NCBI GenBank assembly: GCA_937918935.1
Contig: CAKZSI010000062.1
Location: 1 to 64,000 of the forward strand
DNA: 64,000 nt
Direction of reading: 5' to 3'
DNA from: an uncultured Chloroflexales bacterium
Lineage (GTDB): Bacteria; Chloroflexota; Chloroflexia; Chloroflexales; Chloroflexaceae
Below, in pieces: positions 49,659 to 61,415 of this stretch (the first letter of the stretch is position 1; each line of letters starts with the position of its first letter). The translations under genes and the position numbers were made by a program. Under the pieces are notes generated by a model that did not search any database, was not told the DNA's origin, and was given only the letters and a program-made list of their open reading frames with translations.

Positions 49659-49758
49659 ATCTTTCCACAACGGTTACGTAACATGCCGCGCGGCGAAACG
49701 ACGTCAAAGGTAAGTATTGATTGAACCCGTGTATTCTCACACGAGGAGGTCATACCGC

Positions 49759-50769
49759 TTGAATCACGAGGCGCACATAGCCTTGAACGGGCCAGACGTG
49801 GATCTCAGCCTGTGGGTTCCGCAGGAATTGAAGTCACTTGTAGTTAATAGTGATCATCAAACGGCAATCCCGGCGATAGCCAGAGACGCGGGTCTGATGA
49901 GCGCGATCGATGATGTTGTTCGTTCGATCCCGACGCAGCATCACCTTTACCTCCGCGATGCGCGATCTCTGAGCGATCTGGCGCCTGACTCGGTACACCT
50001 TGTCTTGACCTCCCCACCCTACTGGACCCTCAAAGAGTACCGTTACTCCGAGGGCCAGCTCGGGCAGATCGCAGACTACGAGATGTTCCTAGCCGAGCTT
50101 GATAAAGTCTGGACCCACTGTTTCCGCGCGCTGGCGCCCGGTGGCCGTCTCATCTGCGTTGTTGGCGATGTCTGTCTTTCCCGACGGAAGAATGACGGAC
50201 GACACACTGTCGTCCCTCTCCATGCATCAATCCAGGAGCGTTGTCGTCGCATCGGGTTTGATAATCTCGCTCCCATTATCTGGCACAAGATCGCGAATGC
50301 CGCGTATGAGGTGGAGAACGGCAAGGCTGGTTTCCTGGGCAAGCCCTACGAGCCAAACGCGGTTATCAAGAACGATATCGAGTTTATTCTTATGGAGCGA
50401 AAACCTGGCGGCTATCGGAAACCTTCGCCAGCCAAGCGTTTGCTGAGCATCATTTCATCAGACAATTACCAGCAGTGGTTCCAACAGATCTGGACCGGAC
50501 TTACGGGGGCTTCAACGCGCGACCATCCCGCTCCATACCCGATTGAACTGGCTGAGCGGCTGATTCGCATGTTCAGTTTTGTTGGCGATACGGTGCTCGA
50601 TCCGTTCATGGGCACAGGCACTACAAGTATAGCGGCGGCCCGGTGTGGGCGGAACAGTGTCGGCTGCGAAATAGACCCGCACTACTTCGACATGGCCGAG
50701 CGACGCATTCGCAATGAGACGACCGGATTGTTTTCTAACGTTCAAATTAATATCTTCAAGGGTCAATAG
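49759..50769 (+). CDS. Type II DNA methyltransferase, beta class with TSPPYW motif
   Basis: A 336-residue S-adenosylmethionine-dependent DNA methyltransferase. The catalytic motif IV (LVLTSPPYWTLKEYR, residues about 81-95) precedes motif I-type DPFMGTGTTSIAAARCG (about 281-297), the beta-class order. TSPPYW is typical of N4-cytosine enzymes, whereas adenine enzymes usually have D/N-PPY; this is an inference. The TTG at 49759 is chosen because GAGGAGGT ends 8 nt before it; the frame is open to 49717. It is followed 8 nt later by an endonuclease gene. Codon use looks less GC-biased than neighbours. Confidence 0.9.
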   Translation: MNHEAHIALNGPDVDLSLWVPQELKSLVVNSDHQTAIPAIARDAGLMSAIDDVVRSIPTQHHLYLRDARSLSDLAPDSVHLVLTSPPYWTLKEYRYSEGQLGQIADYEMFLAELDKVWTHCFRALAPGGRLICVVGDVCLSRRKNDGRHTVVPLHASIQERCRRIGFDNLAPIIWHKIANAAYEVENGKAGFLGKPYEPNAVIKNDIEFILMERKPGGYRKPSPAKRLLSIISSDNYQQWFQQIWTGLTGASTRDHPAPYPIELAERLIRMFSFVGDTVLDPFMGTGTTSIAAARCGRNSVGCEIDPHYFDMAERRIRNETTGLFSNVQINIFKGQ

Positions 50770-50777
50770 AACGCTCA

Positions 50778-51509
50778 ATGGCAACGAGCCGTAACGATCT
50801 GACACAGGCCGTCCAGGCTGCCGTGCGCCACTTCTGGCAGACGCGCGAACGCCAGGCAGGCACCCAGGGCGCGAAATCGGGGAACCGTGATCGCGGAGCG
50901 CGCAGTGCCGTTACGGGAGGCGCGCATCTTGACGGCTTCGCCGAATTGATCCGCACACTCGTGGTGAATGCGGGTATCAGCGATGCGGCCGTTCATCGCC
51001 GAACACGGGTCGAATTGCCGGGTTACTATCGTGCCGAGAAAAAATGGGATCTCGTAATCGTCGTCGATGGCCGTCTCTTTGCAACCGTTGAGTTTAAAGC
51101 GCAAGTGGGGCCCTCTTTTGGAAACAACTACAACAACCGAACCGAAGAGGCGCTGGGCAACGCAACTGATTACTGGGCCGCTTACCGCGAAGGCGCATTT
51201 AGAGGTTCACCTAAACCCTGGTCGGGCTATCTCATCCTTTTGGAAGACGCCGCTGGATCTACTTGCCCGATTTCTGTAGCCGAGCCACATTTTCCCGCGT
51301 TCAGCGAGTTTCGCGGCGCGTCCTACGCCAAACGCTATGAAATCCTTTTGACCAGGATGGTACGTGATCGTCTCTACGACGCGGCGTGTCTGATTCTTTC
51401 CCCGAGAGAGGCAATCCCAACCGGCGCGTTCACCGAGCCGTGCGCGGAATTGTCGTTCATTACTTTTGCCGAGAGTCTTCTTGCTCGGGCCATCGCGTAT
51501 GACACGTGA
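50778..51509 (+). CDS. PaeR7I/XhoI-family type II restriction endonuclease
   Basis: A 243-residue protein closely matching the PaeR7I family: the stretch AEKKWDLVIVVDGRLFATVE, FKAQVGPSFGNNYNNRTEEA and WAAYREGAFRGSPKPW. The presumed PD-(D/E)XK residues are Asp91, Glu105 and Lys107 (WDL...EFK). PaeR7I and XhoI cut CTCGAG between C and T; the same target is likely here but not proven. It is co-transcribed with the methyltransferase that must protect the host. Several CTCGAG sites occur in this window, so they need protection. Confidence 0.9.
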   Translation: MATSRNDLTQAVQAAVRHFWQTRERQAGTQGAKSGNRDRGARSAVTGGAHLDGFAELIRTLVVNAGISDAAVHRRTRVELPGYYRAEKKWDLVIVVDGRLFATVEFKAQVGPSFGNNYNNRTEEALGNATDYWAAYREGAFRGSPKPWSGYLILLEDAAGSTCPISVAEPHFPAFSEFRGASYAKRYEILLTRMVRDRLYDAACLILSPREAIPTGAFTEPCAELSFITFAESLLARAIAYDT

Positions 51510-52931: not shown

Positions 52932-53327
52932 TTATCTCAACCCTGGACGGAACTTGTACCCGTAGACGAGCACCCCGTCCTCGCCCGTATCAGCCAGGCG
53001 CCGCGTGACCATCTCGACCGGCATGCCAATGGCCAGGTCCTCCTCGGCGCAGTCGGTGAGCTGTGCGGTCACCAGGGGGCCTTCCTCCAGACGGACCATG
53101 CCCACCGCGTAGATGCCGAAGCTCTCGTACCCGGCAGGCGGCTGCCGCAGCACGCTGAAGCTGTAGAGTTCGCCGCGACCGCTCAGCGGCGCCGGCTCCC
53201 AGACGTCTGGTTCTTCACCCAGCGCCGGAGGTTGGGGCGGAAAGCGCACCACTCCGCTGTGACGATGGCGCTGGCCCTCGAGGCGGTAACGGGTGGCGCG
53301 GGCGCGCCAGTGACGGGCAATTTCCAT
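52932..53327 (-). CDS. DUF35 OB-fold protein lacking zinc-ribbon cysteines
   Basis: A 131-residue protein. The N-terminal HWRARATRYRLEGQRHRHSG followed by VVRFPPQPP corresponds to the DUF35 rubredoxin-like zinc ribbon, in which CxxCG and a second Cys pair normally bind zinc; here the first pair is His21/Ser24 and the second is Pro-rich. The OB-fold (GELYSFSVLRQPPAGYESFG, then IYAVGMVRLEEGPLVTAQLT) is well kept. In archaea DUF35 proteins bridge acetoacetyl-CoA thiolase and HMG-CoA synthase. Thiolase-like and synthase genes lie upstream on the same strand. GAGGTG lies 6 nt before the ATG. Confidence 0.85.
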   Translation of the reverse strand: MEIARHWRARATRYRLEGQRHRHSGVVRFPPQPPALGEEPDVWEPAPLSGRGELYSFSVLRQPPAGYESFGIYAVGMVRLEEGPLVTAQLTDCAEEDLAIGMPVEMVTRRLADTGEDGVLVYGYKFRPGLR

Positions 53328-53357: not shown

Positions 53358-53972
53358 TCAGGGCGAAAAACCGCCCGAAGCGCCCAACAGTGCTGCGATT
53401 AACGCGGCAAAGAAGAGGACAAAACACAGAACGATCGCCACGCCAATCGCCAACAGAATGAGCACCACGTACAGGGCCTTGTTTGCCGGCAGGTTCATCC
53501 CCGACTGAATGGCCAGATAGGTCATGTAGAGACCGTAGATCGACACGGCAAAGGAGAGAACCACTCCCACAAACGGGATAATACCGACCAGACTGCCGAT
53601 TACGGTCAACGGCGCGCTGAACAGCGCGAAGCCGTAGGCCAGTTCGCCGAACGCGCCGGTGCCGCCGAAGGCGCGACCGAGCAGGTAGACGATCCCCCAG
53701 TAGATCAACAGAAAGACCACCGTACCAATCAATGCAGTGGGGATCAAAAAGAAAATATCCGATGGTTGGCCTGCTGCCATATCCGACTCGAGACCCGGTA
53801 TCCTCGGTGGAAATAGCAGTGACCCGATCCAGCTAAGAACCGCATTGATCAGACCCGCTATGAGCGAGTAGATCAGCGCCCACCCCAGGTTGTTCTGTTC
53901 GTGCTCCTCAAAGGTCGAGGCCGACGGACGAGTCAGGACCGCGATGCTGCCGTTGATCATTTGCTGGAACAT
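53358..53972 (-). CDS. Yip1-family membrane protein
   Basis: A 204-residue protein with about five hydrophobic helices; NLGWALIYSLIAGLINAVLS, TALIGTVVFLLIYWGIVYLL, GELAYGFALFSAPLTVIGSL and VIPFVG-type turns match the YIP1 domain family. Function unknown. It lies between the DUF35 and thiolase-like genes on the same strand. GGAGG is 4 nt before the ATG at 53972. Confidence 0.7.
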   Translation of the reverse strand: MFQQMINGSIAVLTRPSASTFEEHEQNNLGWALIYSLIAGLINAVLSWIGSLLFPPRIPGLESDMAAGQPSDIFFLIPTALIGTVVFLLIYWGIVYLLGRAFGGTGAFGELAYGFALFSAPLTVIGSLVGIIPFVGVVLSFAVSIYGLYMTYLAIQSGMNLPANKALYVVLILLAIGVAIVLCFVLFFAALIAALLGASGGFSP

Positions 53973-54179
53973 TGTGCCTCCTCTAGTTGGCAGATTGCGA
54001 TGTGTATTGTAGCGGATAGAACGAACTAGAGGAAGACCCATTCTCGTTTCTTAATGAATTGATAACAATTTGTTATCAAAGTAGCAGCACCTTACGAGAA
54101 GGTCCATACCGTTTCTCATTGCGGCGACGTGCAGGGCCATAGGCATACCCCACCCATGTGAGGAGGGATTATCAATAAG

Positions 54180-54256: not shown

Positions 54257-55432
54257 CTACCGCTCGGCAACCAGCACGCATGTCGCGGCGGTGGCGCCCA
54301 CGCCGCCGAGACACTGGGCCAGGGCCACACGCGCGCCGTCCACCTGGGTGGGGCCGGCTTCGCCGCGCAACTGGCGCAGCAGTTCGACAATCTGGTACAC
54401 CCCGCTCGCGCCGGCCACATCGCCACGGGCCTTGTAGCCCCCGGCCGTGGCGATCGGCGTGCGGCCCGTAGGGGTGATGGCCCCGTCGGCGGCATGGCGG
54501 GGGGCAGCGCCCGGTTCGTAGTAGCCCATGGCCTCCAGGGCCAGCGCCGCGGCAATGCCGTGGGGGTCGGTCAGTTCGAAGACGTCCACGTCGCTGAGGC
54601 CCAGATGGGCGCGTCCCAGGGCGATATGGGCGCTGGCCCGCGCCGCGGCCAGGTCGAGCGGGTCGGCGCGCAGGGCCAGGGCCGGGGTGTCGGTCGCCAC
54701 CGCCACACCCGCCAGCCGCACCAGCGGCACGCCCTCGGCGGCCACTTCGCGGGCCACCCGCTCGCTGGCGAGCACCACGCAGGCCGCCCCGTCGGCCACG
54801 CTGCTGCAATCGAGCATGTTCAGCGGCGAGGCGACCAGGGCGGCCTTGCGGTACTTGTCGGCGTTGATTGGAAAGCGGTAGAGCGCCAGGGGGTTCTTCG
54901 CGGCGTTGGCGTGGGCATTGACCGGGAAGGGCGCAAAGGCCTCGGGGCCGTAGCCGTGTTCGTGCATGTAGCGGCGCATGAGCATGGCCCACTGAGCGGT
55001 GAGGGTCAACCCGTGCAAGGCTTCGGTCTCGGCGTCGCTGGCCAGGGCCAGCGCCGCCTCGACCGCGTCATCGAGCTGGTCGGTCACCTTCTCGGCCCCC
55101 AGCACCGCCACGATCTCGGCTGCCCCGGCAGCGATGGCCTGCACCGCCTGCTGGATAGCCACACCGCCGCTCGCGCCCGCCGCCTCTACACGAACGGCAG
55201 GCACGCCCCGCAACCCCACCGCGGCGGACAGATAGGCCCCCAGGTGTCCCTGGGCCGCCAGGCGGTCGCCAAGCGCATTGGCCACGTAGAGCGCGCCCAC
55301 CCGGTGGGCCGCGAACTCCGGCAGCCCGGCGAAGGCCGCCCGCGTCGCCTCGCTGGCCAGATCGGCCAGGCTCCGCCCGTAGTGCTCGGCTACCGGCGTG
55401 GCGCCCGCGCCGATCAGATACACTCCTGACAT
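54257..55432 (-). CDS. Thiolase-fold protein with degenerate active site
   Basis: A 391-residue protein with the archaeal-type thiolase/SCP-x fold (GGVAIQQAVQAIAAGAAEIV, MLDCSSVADGAACVVLASER, QLRGEAGPTQVDGARVALAQ). The nucleophile loop, normally EAACASGG, reads VEAAGASGG with Gly86 in place of Cys. The GHPxGATG motif reads ARGDVAGASG with Asp338 in place of His. Condensing or thiolytic activity by the usual mechanism is therefore not expected. The gene sits with HMG-CoA synthase and DUF35 genes, whose archaeal counterparts form one complex. GAGGG precedes the ATG at 55432. It could be structural, or have another chemistry. Confidence 0.82.
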   Translation of the reverse strand: MSGVYLIGAGATPVAEHYGRSLADLASEATRAAFAGLPEFAAHRVGALYVANALGDRLAAQGHLGAYLSAAVGLRGVPAVRVEAAGASGGVAIQQAVQAIAAGAAEIVAVLGAEKVTDQLDDAVEAALALASDAETEALHGLTLTAQWAMLMRRYMHEHGYGPEAFAPFPVNAHANAAKNPLALYRFPINADKYRKAALVASPLNMLDCSSVADGAACVVLASERVAREVAAEGVPLVRLAGVAVATDTPALALRADPLDLAAARASAHIALGRAHLGLSDVDVFELTDPHGIAAALALEAMGYYEPGAAPRHAADGAITPTGRTPIATAGGYKARGDVAGASGVYQIVELLRQLRGEAGPTQVDGARVALAQCLGGVGATAATCVLVAER

Positions 55433-55607: not shown

Positions 55608-56657
55608 CTACCCCAGCACCAGCTTACCCCGCCATCTGGCGTAGGTGGCATAATCCACGAACACCTCCCGCTCCAGGTAGGCCGCCGTGAGCGGGGCGCG
55701 CTCGCGGCAGGCGGGCAGGCGCCCGGTCACGGTCAGGGCGTAGGCGTCGGAGCCGGCCCCGCTCCCATAGGTGGTGACGAAGATCGTATCGCCGGGCCGG
55801 GCCACGTCGAGGATGGCGCACAGCCCCACCAGGGCCGCGCCCGAGTAGGGGTTGCCGATGCGCGGGCTGAGCAGGCCCGGGGCGATCTGGGCCTCGCTGA
55901 AACCCAGGCGCTTCGCCACCGTCTGTGGGAACTTGGTATTGGGCTGGTGAAAGACGGCATAGGTAAAATCGGTGGGCGAGCGCCCCAGTTCGTCAAGCAG
56001 GCGCCGTGCGGCCGACATAATCTGGTGAAAATAGGCCGGCTCCCCGGTGAAGCGGTTGCCATGCACGGGGTAGGGCCGGTCGGCCCGGCGGTAAAAGTCG
56101 GGCGTGTCGCTCACATACGAAACCGTCGCGTCAATTGTGGCCACGGCCTCCTCCGCGGGGCCAACCAGCAACGCGCCTGCCCCGGCGGAGGCGGTATACT
56201 CCAGGGCGTCGCCGGGGCGCCCCTGAGCCGTGTCGGCGCCGATCGCCATGGCGTAATCGGCCATGCCGCTGCCCACCAGGGCCATGCTCGCGGTCAGCGC
56301 CTCGGAGCCGGCCTTACAGGCGAACTCCCAGTCCGCCGCGCTGATCCAGTGCGAGGCCCCCAGAGCCTCGGCCACCACTGTTCCCGACGGCTTCACGCTG
56401 TAGGGGTGGCTCTCGCTCCCCACCCATACCGCGCTCAGACGCTCAGCGGGCAGGGCCGCGCGGGCCAGGGCGTTGCGACCGGCCTCAATCGCCATGGTGA
56501 TCACATCCTCATCGGGGCCGGGCACGCTCTTCGCCTCCACCGGCACCCCGCCCTGCCCGTCCGTCCACATGCGGGCAATTTCTCGCGCGGCGATGCGGTA
56601 ACGCGGCACGTAGGCCCCGTAGCCGACCAGACCCACGGGCCGGATGGGTTTCATCAT
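55608..56657 (-). CDS. HMG-CoA synthase, archaeal type
   Basis: A 349-residue enzyme of the mevalonate pathway. Archaeal-type signatures are VGYGAYVPRYRI, VWVGSESHPYSVKPSGTVVA, AADWEFACKAGSEALTASMA and GADTAQGRPGDALEYTASAG. The catalytic residues are present: Glu82 (SESHPY), Cys114 (EFACKAG) and His237 (VFHQPNTKFP). It condenses acetyl-CoA with acetoacetyl-CoA. AAGGAG lies 8-11 nt before the paired ATG codons. It is upstream of the thiolase-like gene and downstream of HMG-CoA reductase on the same strand. Confidence 0.92.
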   Translation of the reverse strand: MMKPIRPVGLVGYGAYVPRYRIAAREIARMWTDGQGGVPVEAKSVPGPDEDVITMAIEAGRNALARAALPAERLSAVWVGSESHPYSVKPSGTVVAEALGASHWISAADWEFACKAGSEALTASMALVGSGMADYAMAIGADTAQGRPGDALEYTASAGAGALLVGPAEEAVATIDATVSYVSDTPDFYRRADRPYPVHGNRFTGEPAYFHQIMSAARRLLDELGRSPTDFTYAVFHQPNTKFPQTVAKRLGFSEAQIAPGLLSPRIGNPYSGAALVGLCAILDVARPGDTIFVTTYGSGAGSDAYALTVTGRLPACRERAPLTAAYLEREVFVDYATYARWRGKLVLG

Positions 56658-56873: not shown

Positions 56874-58175
56874 TTAATGTGAACTCGCCGCGCGCAGTTC
56901 CGCGACCAGTTCCTCGGCGCGGGCAGGCTTGATGTTGCGCTCCTCGACCATGCGCCGCGCGACCTCGTCCACCAGCGGGCCATAGGCGCCGGCGGCCAGA
57001 GCGATCTGGCGCGCGTGCAAGCCCATGTGGCCCTGCTGGATGCCCTCACAGGCCAGGGCGCGCATCGCGGCCAGATTGCTGGCCAGACCGGCGCAGACAG
57101 CGATCTCTGCCAACTGGTTGGCGCTGGTCACACCAAGCAGCTTGAGGGCCGCCTGCGCGGCAGGGTGCACCCTGGTTGCTCCGCCGACGATGCCAACGGC
57201 CATAGGCATCTCCAGCGTACCGACCAGGTTGCCCTCAGCGTCTTTCTCCCAGACGCTCAGCGAGGTATAGCGTCCGCTGCGGGCGGCGTAGGCATGGGCG
57301 CCGGCCTCGATGGCGCGCCAGTCGTTGCCCGTGGCGACGATCACCGGGTCAATGCCGTTCAGAATGCCCTTGTTGTGGGTCGTGGCGCGGTAGGGGTCCA
57401 CGGCGGCGAAGGCATAGGCCCAGAGAATGCCTTCGACCACCTCCTCGCCGCGCAGACCGTCGCGCTCGAGGGCGCGCGGCGGCACCACGCAGCGGGCGCG
57501 CGCCAGACGCCGATCGCTCAGGTTTGAGAGAATGCGCAGGTAGACCCGACCACGGGTGATCTGCTCGAGCAGCGGGGCCACGGCCTCACACATCGAATTG
57601 ATGGCATTGGCCCCCATCGCATCCCGCGTATCAATAATCAGATGCACCACCAGCATCGGCCCCATGGGGCTGGCGGGGTGATAGTGCACCTCAACGTCGC
57701 GGGCGCCCCCGCCGAGGGCGACCAGCGAGCGACTCTGCGCATTGGCAATCGCCAGAATCTCATTCTTGCGGCGCAAAATATCGTGCCGCGCGCTCTGCGG
57801 CGCGGTCACGTTCACGATCTGCACCTGGCCAATCATCAGCGGGTCGGTGCTGCCCGCGCTGAAACCGCCGCCCTCACGCACCATCTTCGCGGCATAACTG
57901 GCCCCGGCCACAATCGAAGGCTCTTCCACCACCATTGGAACAAGATAATCACGCCCGTTGATCTGGAAGTTCGTCGCAATGCCCAGAGGCAGGTTGAAGG
58001 TGCCGACGACGTTTTCGATCATCTTGTCGGCGCGCTCGATCGAGAGAGCGCCCTGCCCCCCGTGCAACACGCGCAGATCTTCGTCGCACAGCCCATCGAA
58101 TGACTTGACCATCTGGAGCCGCTCGAACGGGTTGAGTTGATAAAATCCCTGGAGGCGTGAGTTTTTGGTACCCAT
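56874..58175 (-). CDS. mvaA: HMG-CoA reductase, class II
   Basis: A 433-residue enzyme. The class II motif [14 protein letters not shown] contains catalytic Glu54; Lys269 is in [10 protein letters not shown], Asp285 in [11 protein letters not shown], and the C-terminal catalytic His387 in [11 protein letters not shown]. The 433-residue length without membrane helices is typical of class II enzymes such as that of Pseudomonas mevalonii. It interconverts HMG-CoA and mevalonate; beside HMG-CoA synthase a biosynthetic role is likely. The start at 58175 has only a distant GGAG. Confidence 0.94.
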
Positions 58176-58519
58176 ACGTTCGGTTGTCTCCTCGGTTCGT
58201 GACTGCACGCACAATTACGATACACTACCAATTCTAGCACCGCTACGCTTCCAGAAGCCTCAGAGAGACTGTCAAAACCTATCATGGGACTTTCCAGGAC
58301 TTCCAGGGACAGCCGCGCCGCCCACCGACAGGGGCTGAGAGGTGCTGCTCGCGCTCTATGGTACAATGCCAGGCGGTAACCTGGGCGCCGTTTCGCCGGC
58401 GCTATGCCCGCGGGGGGCCAGACATCTATTCCCTGGAACGTACACGCATCATCGGCACGTCTGATCGCGACACCACAATCCAGCATCCAAACTCCAAAGC
58501 CGTGCATCCCTTTACTGCC
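58176..58519. other. Intergenic region between divergent genes, nothing recognised
   Basis: The region between the HMG-CoA reductase start and the lipoprotein start contains no repeat-family copy or gene that I could support. It must hold both promoters. Confidence 0.4.
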
Positions 58520-59789: not shown

Positions 59790-60620
59790 ATGGTTTACGC
59801 AACCCGGCGCTTCGAGTTTTCGGCGTCGCACCGCTACTGGCGCGACGATTGGAGCCCCGAGGAGAACGAGCGGGTCTTCGGGAAGTGCACCAGTCCCTAC
59901 GGGCATGGGCACAACTACACGCTCGACGTTACCATCACCGGCGCACTCGACCCGCGCACGGGCATGGTGATGAACATGACCGAATTGAAGGCGATTGTCA
60001 ATGAGGTGCTGGAGGAGTTTGACCACAGGAACCTGAATGAAGATACGCCCTACTTCAAAACCCAACTCCCGACCACCGAGAATCTGGTGCGGGTGCTCTG
60101 GCGGCTGATCGCCGCGCGGCTGCCCGCGGAGGCCCGTCTGGCGCGCCTGCGCCTGTACGAGATGGCCGACCTGTGGGCGGAGTACGACGGCGCCGACGAG
60201 ACCACCTTCGCCCGGGCCTACACCTTCTCGGCGGCCCACCGGCTCCACGCGCCGGCCCTCTCCGATGAGGAGAATCGCGCCGTTTACGGGAAGTGCAACA
60301 ACCCCAACGGGCACGGCCACAACTACACCGTTGAAGTGAGCATCAGCGGGCCGGTTGACCCCGAGACGGGCATGGTGATTGACCTGGCGGCGCTGGATCG
60401 CACCGTGCGCGAGGTGCTCGATCAACTCGATTTTCGCCACCTCGACCGCGAGATCGCGGCCTTTGCCGATCAACCGTCAACGGCTGAGAACATCGTTGTC
60501 TACCTCTGGAACGAACTCGCGCCCCGTTTCGAGGGCCGCTTGCGCCACCTCAAGCTCTGGGAAACGCGCAAGAATGTCTTCGAGTACGCCGGCCCGGTCG
60601 GGGCCGGCGCTCCCCGGTAA
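59790..60620 (+). CDS. Tandem-duplicated 6-pyruvoyl-tetrahydropterin synthase/QueD-like protein
   Basis: A 276-residue protein made of two PTPS domains (about 1-132 and 140-270). Domain 1 has Zn ligands His14, His39 and His41, catalytic Cys33 (KCTSPYGHGHNY) and the Asp78-His79 pair (FDHRNL). Domain 2 has His150, His175, His177 and Cys169 (KCNNPNGHGHNY), but its DH pair reads DFRHL, so the catalytic His is Phe215. The CX5HGH spacing resembles animal PTPS rather than QueD (CX3HGH). Next to folE and an SDR, a role in tetrahydropterin synthesis is favoured. No queuosine genes are adjacent. Confidence 0.88.
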   Translation: MVYATRRFEFSASHRYWRDDWSPEENERVFGKCTSPYGHGHNYTLDVTITGALDPRTGMVMNMTELKAIVNEVLEEFDHRNLNEDTPYFKTQLPTTENLVRVLWRLIAARLPAEARLARLRLYEMADLWAEYDGADETTFARAYTFSAAHRLHAPALSDEENRAVYGKCNNPNGHGHNYTVEVSISGPVDPETGMVIDLAALDRTVREVLDQLDFRHLDREIAAFADQPSTAENIVVYLWNELAPRFEGRLRHLKLWETRKNVFEYAGPVGAGAPR

Positions 60621-60713: not shown

Positions 60714-61415
60714 ATGACAACCCAACTGAAACTTAACGGAACCCATGACCCAGACGGACACGACCACGAGGACTTTAACGCGCACGACTACGAGGCTCTG
60801 ATCATTCCCGGACGGGGCAAACTCGAGGGCGTCGCTTACAGCTCTAACCCCCAGATCGAGGCGGCGGTACGGGAAATCCTCGCGGGGATCGGCGAACAGC
60901 CCGACCGCGAAGGTCTGCTGAAAACCCCTTCGCGGGTGGCCAAAATGTACGCCGAACTGACCGCCGGCTACCATGTGGACCCGGATGCGTTGATCAACGA
61001 TGCCATCTTCAGCGTCAGCTACGATGAAATGGTGCTGGTGAAGAACATCGATTTCTATAGCCTGTGCGAGCACCATATGCTGCCGTTTATGGGCCAGGTG
61101 CACGTCGCCTACATCCCCAACGGCAAGGTGGTGGGGCTGAGCAAGATCCCGCGCATCGTTGAGATGTTCGCGCGCCGCCTGCAGGTGCAGGAGCGCATGA
61201 CGGTGCAGATCGCCGAGTTCATTGACCAGCACCTCCAACCCCTGGGAGTGGCCGTCGTAGCCGACGGGGTACATATGTGCTCGGTCATGCGGGGCGTGAA
61301 GAAGGCCAATGCCAGCATGGTCACTTCGGCCATGCGCGGGGTCTTCCGCGATGACCCCAAGACGCGAGCCGAGTTCATGGCCCACGTGGGCCGCGCCCGC
61401 GCCCAGGACGTATAA
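60714..61415 (+). CDS. folE: GTP cyclohydrolase I
   Basis: A 233-residue enzyme converting GTP to dihydroneopterin triphosphate. Zinc ligands are Cys118 and His121 ([10 protein letters not shown]) and Cys189 (VHMCSVMRG), matching E. coli Cys110, His113 and Cys181. Other motifs are [15 protein letters not shown] and [20 protein letters not shown]. The N-terminal 38 residues are acidic and His-rich, an addition to the core. It follows the PTPS gene by 93 nt, with a repeat palindrome in between. Confidence 0.96.

Follow-up and report, generated by a model that had tools for sequence, protein, structure and literature searches.

What does a thiolase homolog do in a mevalonate operon once its catalytic residues have been replaced? 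This question is raised by a gene on the minus strand (positions 54257-55432) of the stretch of 64,000 nucleotides of Chloroflexales DNA that we analyzed, called the window below. A previous sequence-only reading had pointed to the replacement of both classical catalytic residues of a thiolase in an uninterrupted frame, and had considered either a pseudoenzyme subunit or a protein with a new activity. The frame is indeed open, starts with ATG and encodes a product of 391 amino acids. Its Pfam matches are Thiolase_N and Thiolase_C_1, and the top NCBIfam models are PRK06064 and AcCoTHIOL_METTL, both scoring under their curated cut-offs. The nearest solved structures are 7yvy, a thiolase of Pyrococcus furiosus (9.5e-81), and 6esq, the thiolase of an archaeal complex. 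The former, PFC_04095, ranks first by sequence and is 42% identical to the protein when the structures are aligned. An AlphaFold2 model made with 30 orthologs as input (pTM 0.90, mean pLDDT 87) matches 6esq_A over 385 residues with a Z-score of 56.5 and an rmsd of 1.8 Å. By fold and by descent, given the full-length homology to 6esq and 7yvy, the protein is an archaeal-type (SCP2-like) acetoacetyl-CoA thiolase, for which we propose the role of a non-catalytic subunit.

The alignment with 6esq and 7yvy located the catalytic positions. In the loop that reads EAACASG in archaeal-type thiolases, the place of the nucleophilic Cys (Cys85 of 6esq) is taken by Gly86 (codon GGC, 55175-55177), and the His of the GHP motif is replaced by Asp338 (codon GAT, 54419-54421). 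These two replacements are those that the sequence-only reading had described, but its count was incomplete, because a third one had been missed: the motif HDCF in 6esq and HDAF in 7yvy is replaced by Thr288-Asp289-Pro290-His291 (54560-54571), with Thr288 (codon ACC, 54569-54571) at the position of the His. Judged by this alignment, the protein is a thiolase homolog without any of the three family catalytic residues, Cys, HDAF His and GHP His, whereas the P. furiosus enzyme has all three. Another residue of the pocket is Trp148 (TGG, 54989-54991), which lies within helix 144-159 according to the alignment and the AlphaFold model.

These changes are not private to the window. When 158 genomes of the class were scanned, most of those from four families proved to have a single clear ortholog in the operon, and the relatives having one include the genera Chloroploca, Oscillochloris and Viridilinea. 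Of the 68 orthologs aligned from the order, 66 have Gly at position 86, one has Thr and one a gap; at position 338, 64 have Asp and the other four Asn; and position 288 is occupied by Thr (39), Ser (25), Cys (two) or His (two). The Gly/Asp pair, whose conservation the sequence-only reading had proposed to check, is therefore nearly constant in the order, and most members sampled from another class of the phylum share the loss. Asp289 is invariant in the order, and both His291 and Trp148 are present in 68 of 68 orthologs. Position 148 is Asn in 31 of 32 Cys-bearing relatives and mostly Ala in Cys-less relatives outside the order. Because the same changes recur in open frames across about 68 orthologs of the order, a sequencing error, a pseudogene or a private mutation can be ruled out as their origin. 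A nucleophile elsewhere in the protein, which would have overturned the earlier interpretation, finds no support: when 30 sequences of the subfamily were aligned, no other Cys was conserved in 90% of them. Many orthologs have Ser, Thr or Val instead of Cys374, and several have Ser or Thr instead of Cys209.

The genes around the thiolase homolog belong to a mevalonate operon. In the direction of transcription (minus strand), it comprises genes for HMG-CoA reductase (56874-58214; PF00368, TIGR00532), archaeal-type HMG-CoA synthase (55608-56657; above the cut-offs of TIGR00748 and PRK04262), the thiolase homolog, a Yip1-domain membrane protein (53358-54041; PF04893) and a DUF35/OB-fold protein of the ChsH2_C family (52932-53327; PF01796). 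The order reductase, synthase, thiolase and DUF35 is maintained across the taxonomic order. The Yip1-domain gene is found at this site in most genomes of the window's family, and according to the operon map it was not seen inside the operon in the other families. The reductase scores highest with TIGR00532, the NAD-type "degradative" model, despite the biosynthetic operon in which it is encoded. Elsewhere in the window, inspection by eye suggested, at 59790-60620 and 60714-61415, two 6-pyruvoyl-tetrahydropterin-synthase-like domains in tandem fusion that adjoin a GTP-cyclohydrolase-I-like gene, and, at 49717-50769 and 50778-51509, a DNA methyltransferase-like gene followed by a possible restriction endonuclease gene.

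The genes for thiolase, synthase and DUF35 protein are the same three that encode the archaeal complex 6ESQ, and all of them are located here within one operon, as expected for the tripartite complex. The synthase matches 6esq_I (1.6e-118), and its alignment confirmed what had been claimed for this neighbor: the catalytic Glu, Cys and His are all present, and they are intact in every locus of the alignment in which the column is present. The DUF35 protein matches 6esq_E (1.2e-24), but differs from it by the loss of all four zinc-ribbon cysteines. None of 67 DUF35 sequences of the order contains the four-Cys motif, whereas it is present in 28 of 28 from operons whose thiolase has the Cys. In two families of the other class, the zinc-ribbon half of DUF35 is missing or forms a separate short frame (L201, L202, L224, L162, L197 and L222). 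As the DUF35 protein of the window has no zinc ribbon, the complex may be arranged differently here. The thiolase homolog in turn differs from its 6ESQ counterpart in lacking Cys85 and both His residues, and by the mechanism known for the archaeal complex, acetoacetyl-CoA could not be made on the complex here.

How widespread is the loss among Chloroflexota? Of 400 genomes sampled across the phylum, 92 gave a match to archaeal-type HMG-CoA synthase, as did 372 of 397 genomes of one other class. The neighboring thiolase was read in about 95 of these synthase loci and ranges from fully intact to heavily altered. When 162 sequences were aligned together, among them two archaeal references and one unlinked copy, 32 proved to contain the nucleophilic Cys, and all 32 also have His at positions 288 and 338. 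The roughly 129 Cys-less sequences have Gly (96), Asp (24), Glu (7), Thr (1) or Gln (1) at position 86, and there is one gap; only five of them still have the GHP His. Thus, the Cys and both His residues are either kept jointly or lost, which is the pattern predicted by loss of the thiolase reaction. Once the nucleophile is gone, the remaining catalytic residues drift, and at least five identities occur at the nucleophile position itself. Two further observations concern neighboring lineages. In another family of the class, one mevalonate operon (L082) has Glu for the Cys, GAP for GHP and a zinc-free DUF35, apparently through a separate loss. Some genomes of the window's family have a second thiolase-like gene (about 42% identical; L078, L079, L080 and L081) outside the mevalonate operon; Thr replaces the nucleophile in it (EAATATG), but its HDAF and GHP motifs are intact, and the flanking genes vary.

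A phylogenetic tree of 109 sequences, computed without the trait columns, requires a minimum of four switches between Cys and non-Cys, as well as 17 residue changes at the nucleophile site; with extra intact copies added, the minimum number of switches is six. Both trees come from quick searches with SH-aLRT support only. The order falls into a single deep clade (SH-aLRT 95; 82 rows in the first tree) together with most of the Cys-less sequences from the other class. Recent losses are nested among intact relatives: L194 (Asp) is placed beside L195 (SH-aLRT 95), L271 (Gly) beside the intact L164 (SH-aLRT 94), and L200 is likewise a recent loss. These recent losers retain Asn148, while the older Cys-less sequences mostly have Ala and those of the order have Trp. 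The tree counts alone do not separate gain of the Cys from its loss; both archaeal references are intact. Taken from these sequences, catalytic loss appears to have arisen several times, including independently in other Chloroflexota.

Selection still acts on the gene. Pairwise dN/dS values of the thiolase homolog in close pairs within the order range from 0.06 to 0.23. At 75-80% identity of the synthase, the mean thiolase identity is 78% for Cys-bearing pairs versus 62-65% for Cys-less pairs, and at 80-85% synthase identity, the values are 0.83 and 0.68-0.71, respectively. The dN/dS values below 1, together with the lower identity at equal divergence of the synthase, indicate that the Cys-less thiolase is constrained, but less so than as an enzyme. 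The gene therefore has the features by which a pseudoenzyme is recognized: it is conserved and under purifying selection, and its catalytic residues are lost.

If the operon thiolase is inactive, acetoacetyl-CoA has to come from elsewhere. Neither the window's genome nor any of the ten mevalonate-pathway genomes tested gave a convincing match to DXR of the MEP pathway, and mevalonate kinase is present in all ten; the mevalonate route is thus the only one seen, and it must work and be fed. A second archaeal-type thiolase was not found in the window's genome at an E-value of 0.001, so replacement by such a copy was ruled out there. The genome does encode four canonical PF00108/PF02803 thiolases outside the operon, at least three of which have recognizable Cys, NEAF, GHP and C-x-G-G-G motifs. 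Across 126 genomes, 95 of the 97 Cys-less ones encode a canonical thiolase with a strong match to PF02803, versus 23 of the 29 Cys-bearing ones; the Fisher p-value of 0.002 for this association ignores phylogeny, and an independent-pairs test yields too few contrasts. Two Cys-less genomes are exceptions in having no canonical thiolase. One of them (G798) has a second archaeal-type thiolase (L235) with Cys, HDAF and GHP. For the other (G071), the draft is 92% complete, and canonical thiolases are present in its relatives.

Genomes without a thiolase gene at this site are informative about the need for the fold. In four of 60 sampled operons of the other class (L176, L197, L207 and L222), no thiolase adjoins the synthase. 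The same four genomes contain an intact unlinked archaeal-type thiolase (L278, L281, L279 and L282, respectively) in addition to canonical thiolases, which rules out complete thiolase loss. As the operon thiolase is absent and an archaeal-type copy is nevertheless present elsewhere, the archaeal-type fold seems to accompany this synthase. In these four genomes, the unlinked intact thiolase would fill the structural seat; the pattern is a correlation that fits a structural need of the synthase for the fold. In one further genome (G844), whose assembly is 90% complete, no match to an operon-type thiolase was obtained.

Altogether, the thiolase homolog is probably a pseudoenzyme subunit, kept as a structural partner of HMG-CoA synthase and as part of a shared CoA site, with acetoacetyl-CoA supplied by other thiolases. 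Between the two possibilities raised by the sequence-only reading, the drift of residues, the relaxed but purifying selection and the presence of other competent thiolases favor the pseudoenzyme. In the crystal structure of the archaeal complex, CoA is bound at an interface to which residues of all three proteins contribute (PMC6392133), and the acetoacetyl group travels through a CoA site common to thiolase and synthase (PMC12329534). The dead thiolase homolog would still assemble with the synthase and the DUF35 protein as in the archaeal tripartite complex, and CoA would likewise be bound at an interface built from all three. The homolog would be kept because the synthase needs it, both for structural partnership and for its contribution to the site that binds acetoacetyl-CoA or to the path by which the latter enters. 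A separate canonical thiolase would make acetoacetyl-CoA, which would enter the complex from the pool, and the original coupling of the two reactions on the complex would have been lost. If the CoA site of the synthase is partly built by the thiolase, then the chemistry of the latter is dispensable given another source of acetoacetyl-CoA, but the protein is not.

There is a precedent for such an arrangement. The Friedel-Crafts acylase PhlABC (PDB 5M3K) has the same three-subunit architecture with one dead member, although for the window the complex is deduced from the genes. It is a mirror image of the present case, since PhlABC combines a dead HMGS-like subunit with a working thiolase-like one, and here it is the reverse. 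The HMGS-like PhlA has Gly115 in place of the catalytic Cys and also lacks the catalytic Glu; it is considered necessary for the complex to fold properly and to assemble (PMC6392133).

A counterpoint to the pseudoenzyme subunit comes from the order itself, where the pocket residues (Trp148, Asp289, His291 and mostly Asp338) vary less among the aligned orthologs than would be expected if a dead pocket were simply drifting. This non-random pocket, together with the loss of the DUF35 zinc ribbon, makes a new function possible. Gly86, Trp148, Asp289-Pro290-His291 and Asp338, combined with a zinc-free DUF35, could serve in the synthase complex as a catalytic site or as an acyl-CoA gate or sensor, unlike the scaffold role of the other Cys-less lineages; we regard this as conceivable but rather unlikely.

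It is unlikely, more specifically, that the same pocket catalyzes a different acyl-CoA reaction, such as a retro-aldol cleavage or a decarboxylation in the manner of CtSal and Ltp2. The steroid aldolases CtSal-Shy(DUF35) and Ltp2-ChsH2(DUF35) (PDB 9MYR and 6OK1) share the thiolase fold, a DUF35 partner and the absence of the thiolase nucleophile, and CtSal is active with Gly at that position (PMC12329534); the invariance of Asp289, His291 and Trp148 and the near invariance of Gly86 and Asp338 in the 68 orthologs would also suit an enzyme. However, these aldolases are active retro-aldolases of a steroid pathway that use the Tyr of the YDxF/Y motif as their base, and this residue is Thr or Ser here, while the position of the catalytic Cys304 of CtSal is occupied by Pro290. 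An aldolase of the Sal/Ltp2 kind can be ruled out, as the motif reads TDPH and the catalytic Tyr that belongs to its definition (PMC12329534) is absent. Moreover, the gene remains in a mevalonate operon, where no such reaction is needed, and other Cys-less lineages with the same operon lack the Asp-Pro-His sequence, mostly lack Asp338 and have varied residues, so any new activity would be lineage-specific. Another non-canonical member of the fold, the SCP2-thiolase-like protein TbSLP of Trypanosoma brucei (PDB 5AB6), lacks the SCP2-thiolase cysteines (PMC12329534), but differs from the Chloroflexales protein in having no DUF35 partner and in its YDCF motif.

The dead pocket might instead bind CoA, acetyl-CoA or acetoacetyl-CoA and tune the synthase allosterically. 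A pocket that is remodeled and yet conserved within the order could be read in this way, as could the CoA seen at the three-subunit interface of the archaeal crystal structure (PMC6392133), but the wide variation of pocket residues among Cys-less lineages makes such a regulatory subunit quite improbable. It is very improbable that the gene is a decaying relic retained only through its linkage to the operon: its constraint is relaxed relative to that of the synthase and it is missing from the operon in the four sampled genomes mentioned above, but dN/dS is well under 1, the frames are full-length across the order, and each of those four genomes has an intact archaeal-type thiolase elsewhere. 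That the protein still acts as a thiolase, through another nucleophile or a Cys-independent mechanism, is scarcely tenable, for although Cys374 sits at the C-x-G-G-x-G position of canonical thiolases, both it and Cys209 are replaced in orthologs, no Cys of the subfamily is conserved at 90% or more, and both active-site His residues are gone as well.

We found no description of a dead thiolase in this operon in the open-licence papers covered by our search. The archaeal complex of thiolase and HMG-CoA synthase has been described as coupling an unfavorable reaction to a favorable one via a shared CoA site. In Chloroflexota, the first of these reactions has apparently been removed from the complex several times, while the protein has been kept. 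This makes a long-standing question testable, namely what share of the benefit of such complexes stems from the transfer of the intermediate and what share from building the active site of the partner. As a caution, these operon genes of Chloroflexota should not be annotated as acetyl-CoA acetyltransferase; other thiolases are indicated as the source of acetoacetyl-CoA for isoprenoids in Chloroflexus and its relatives.
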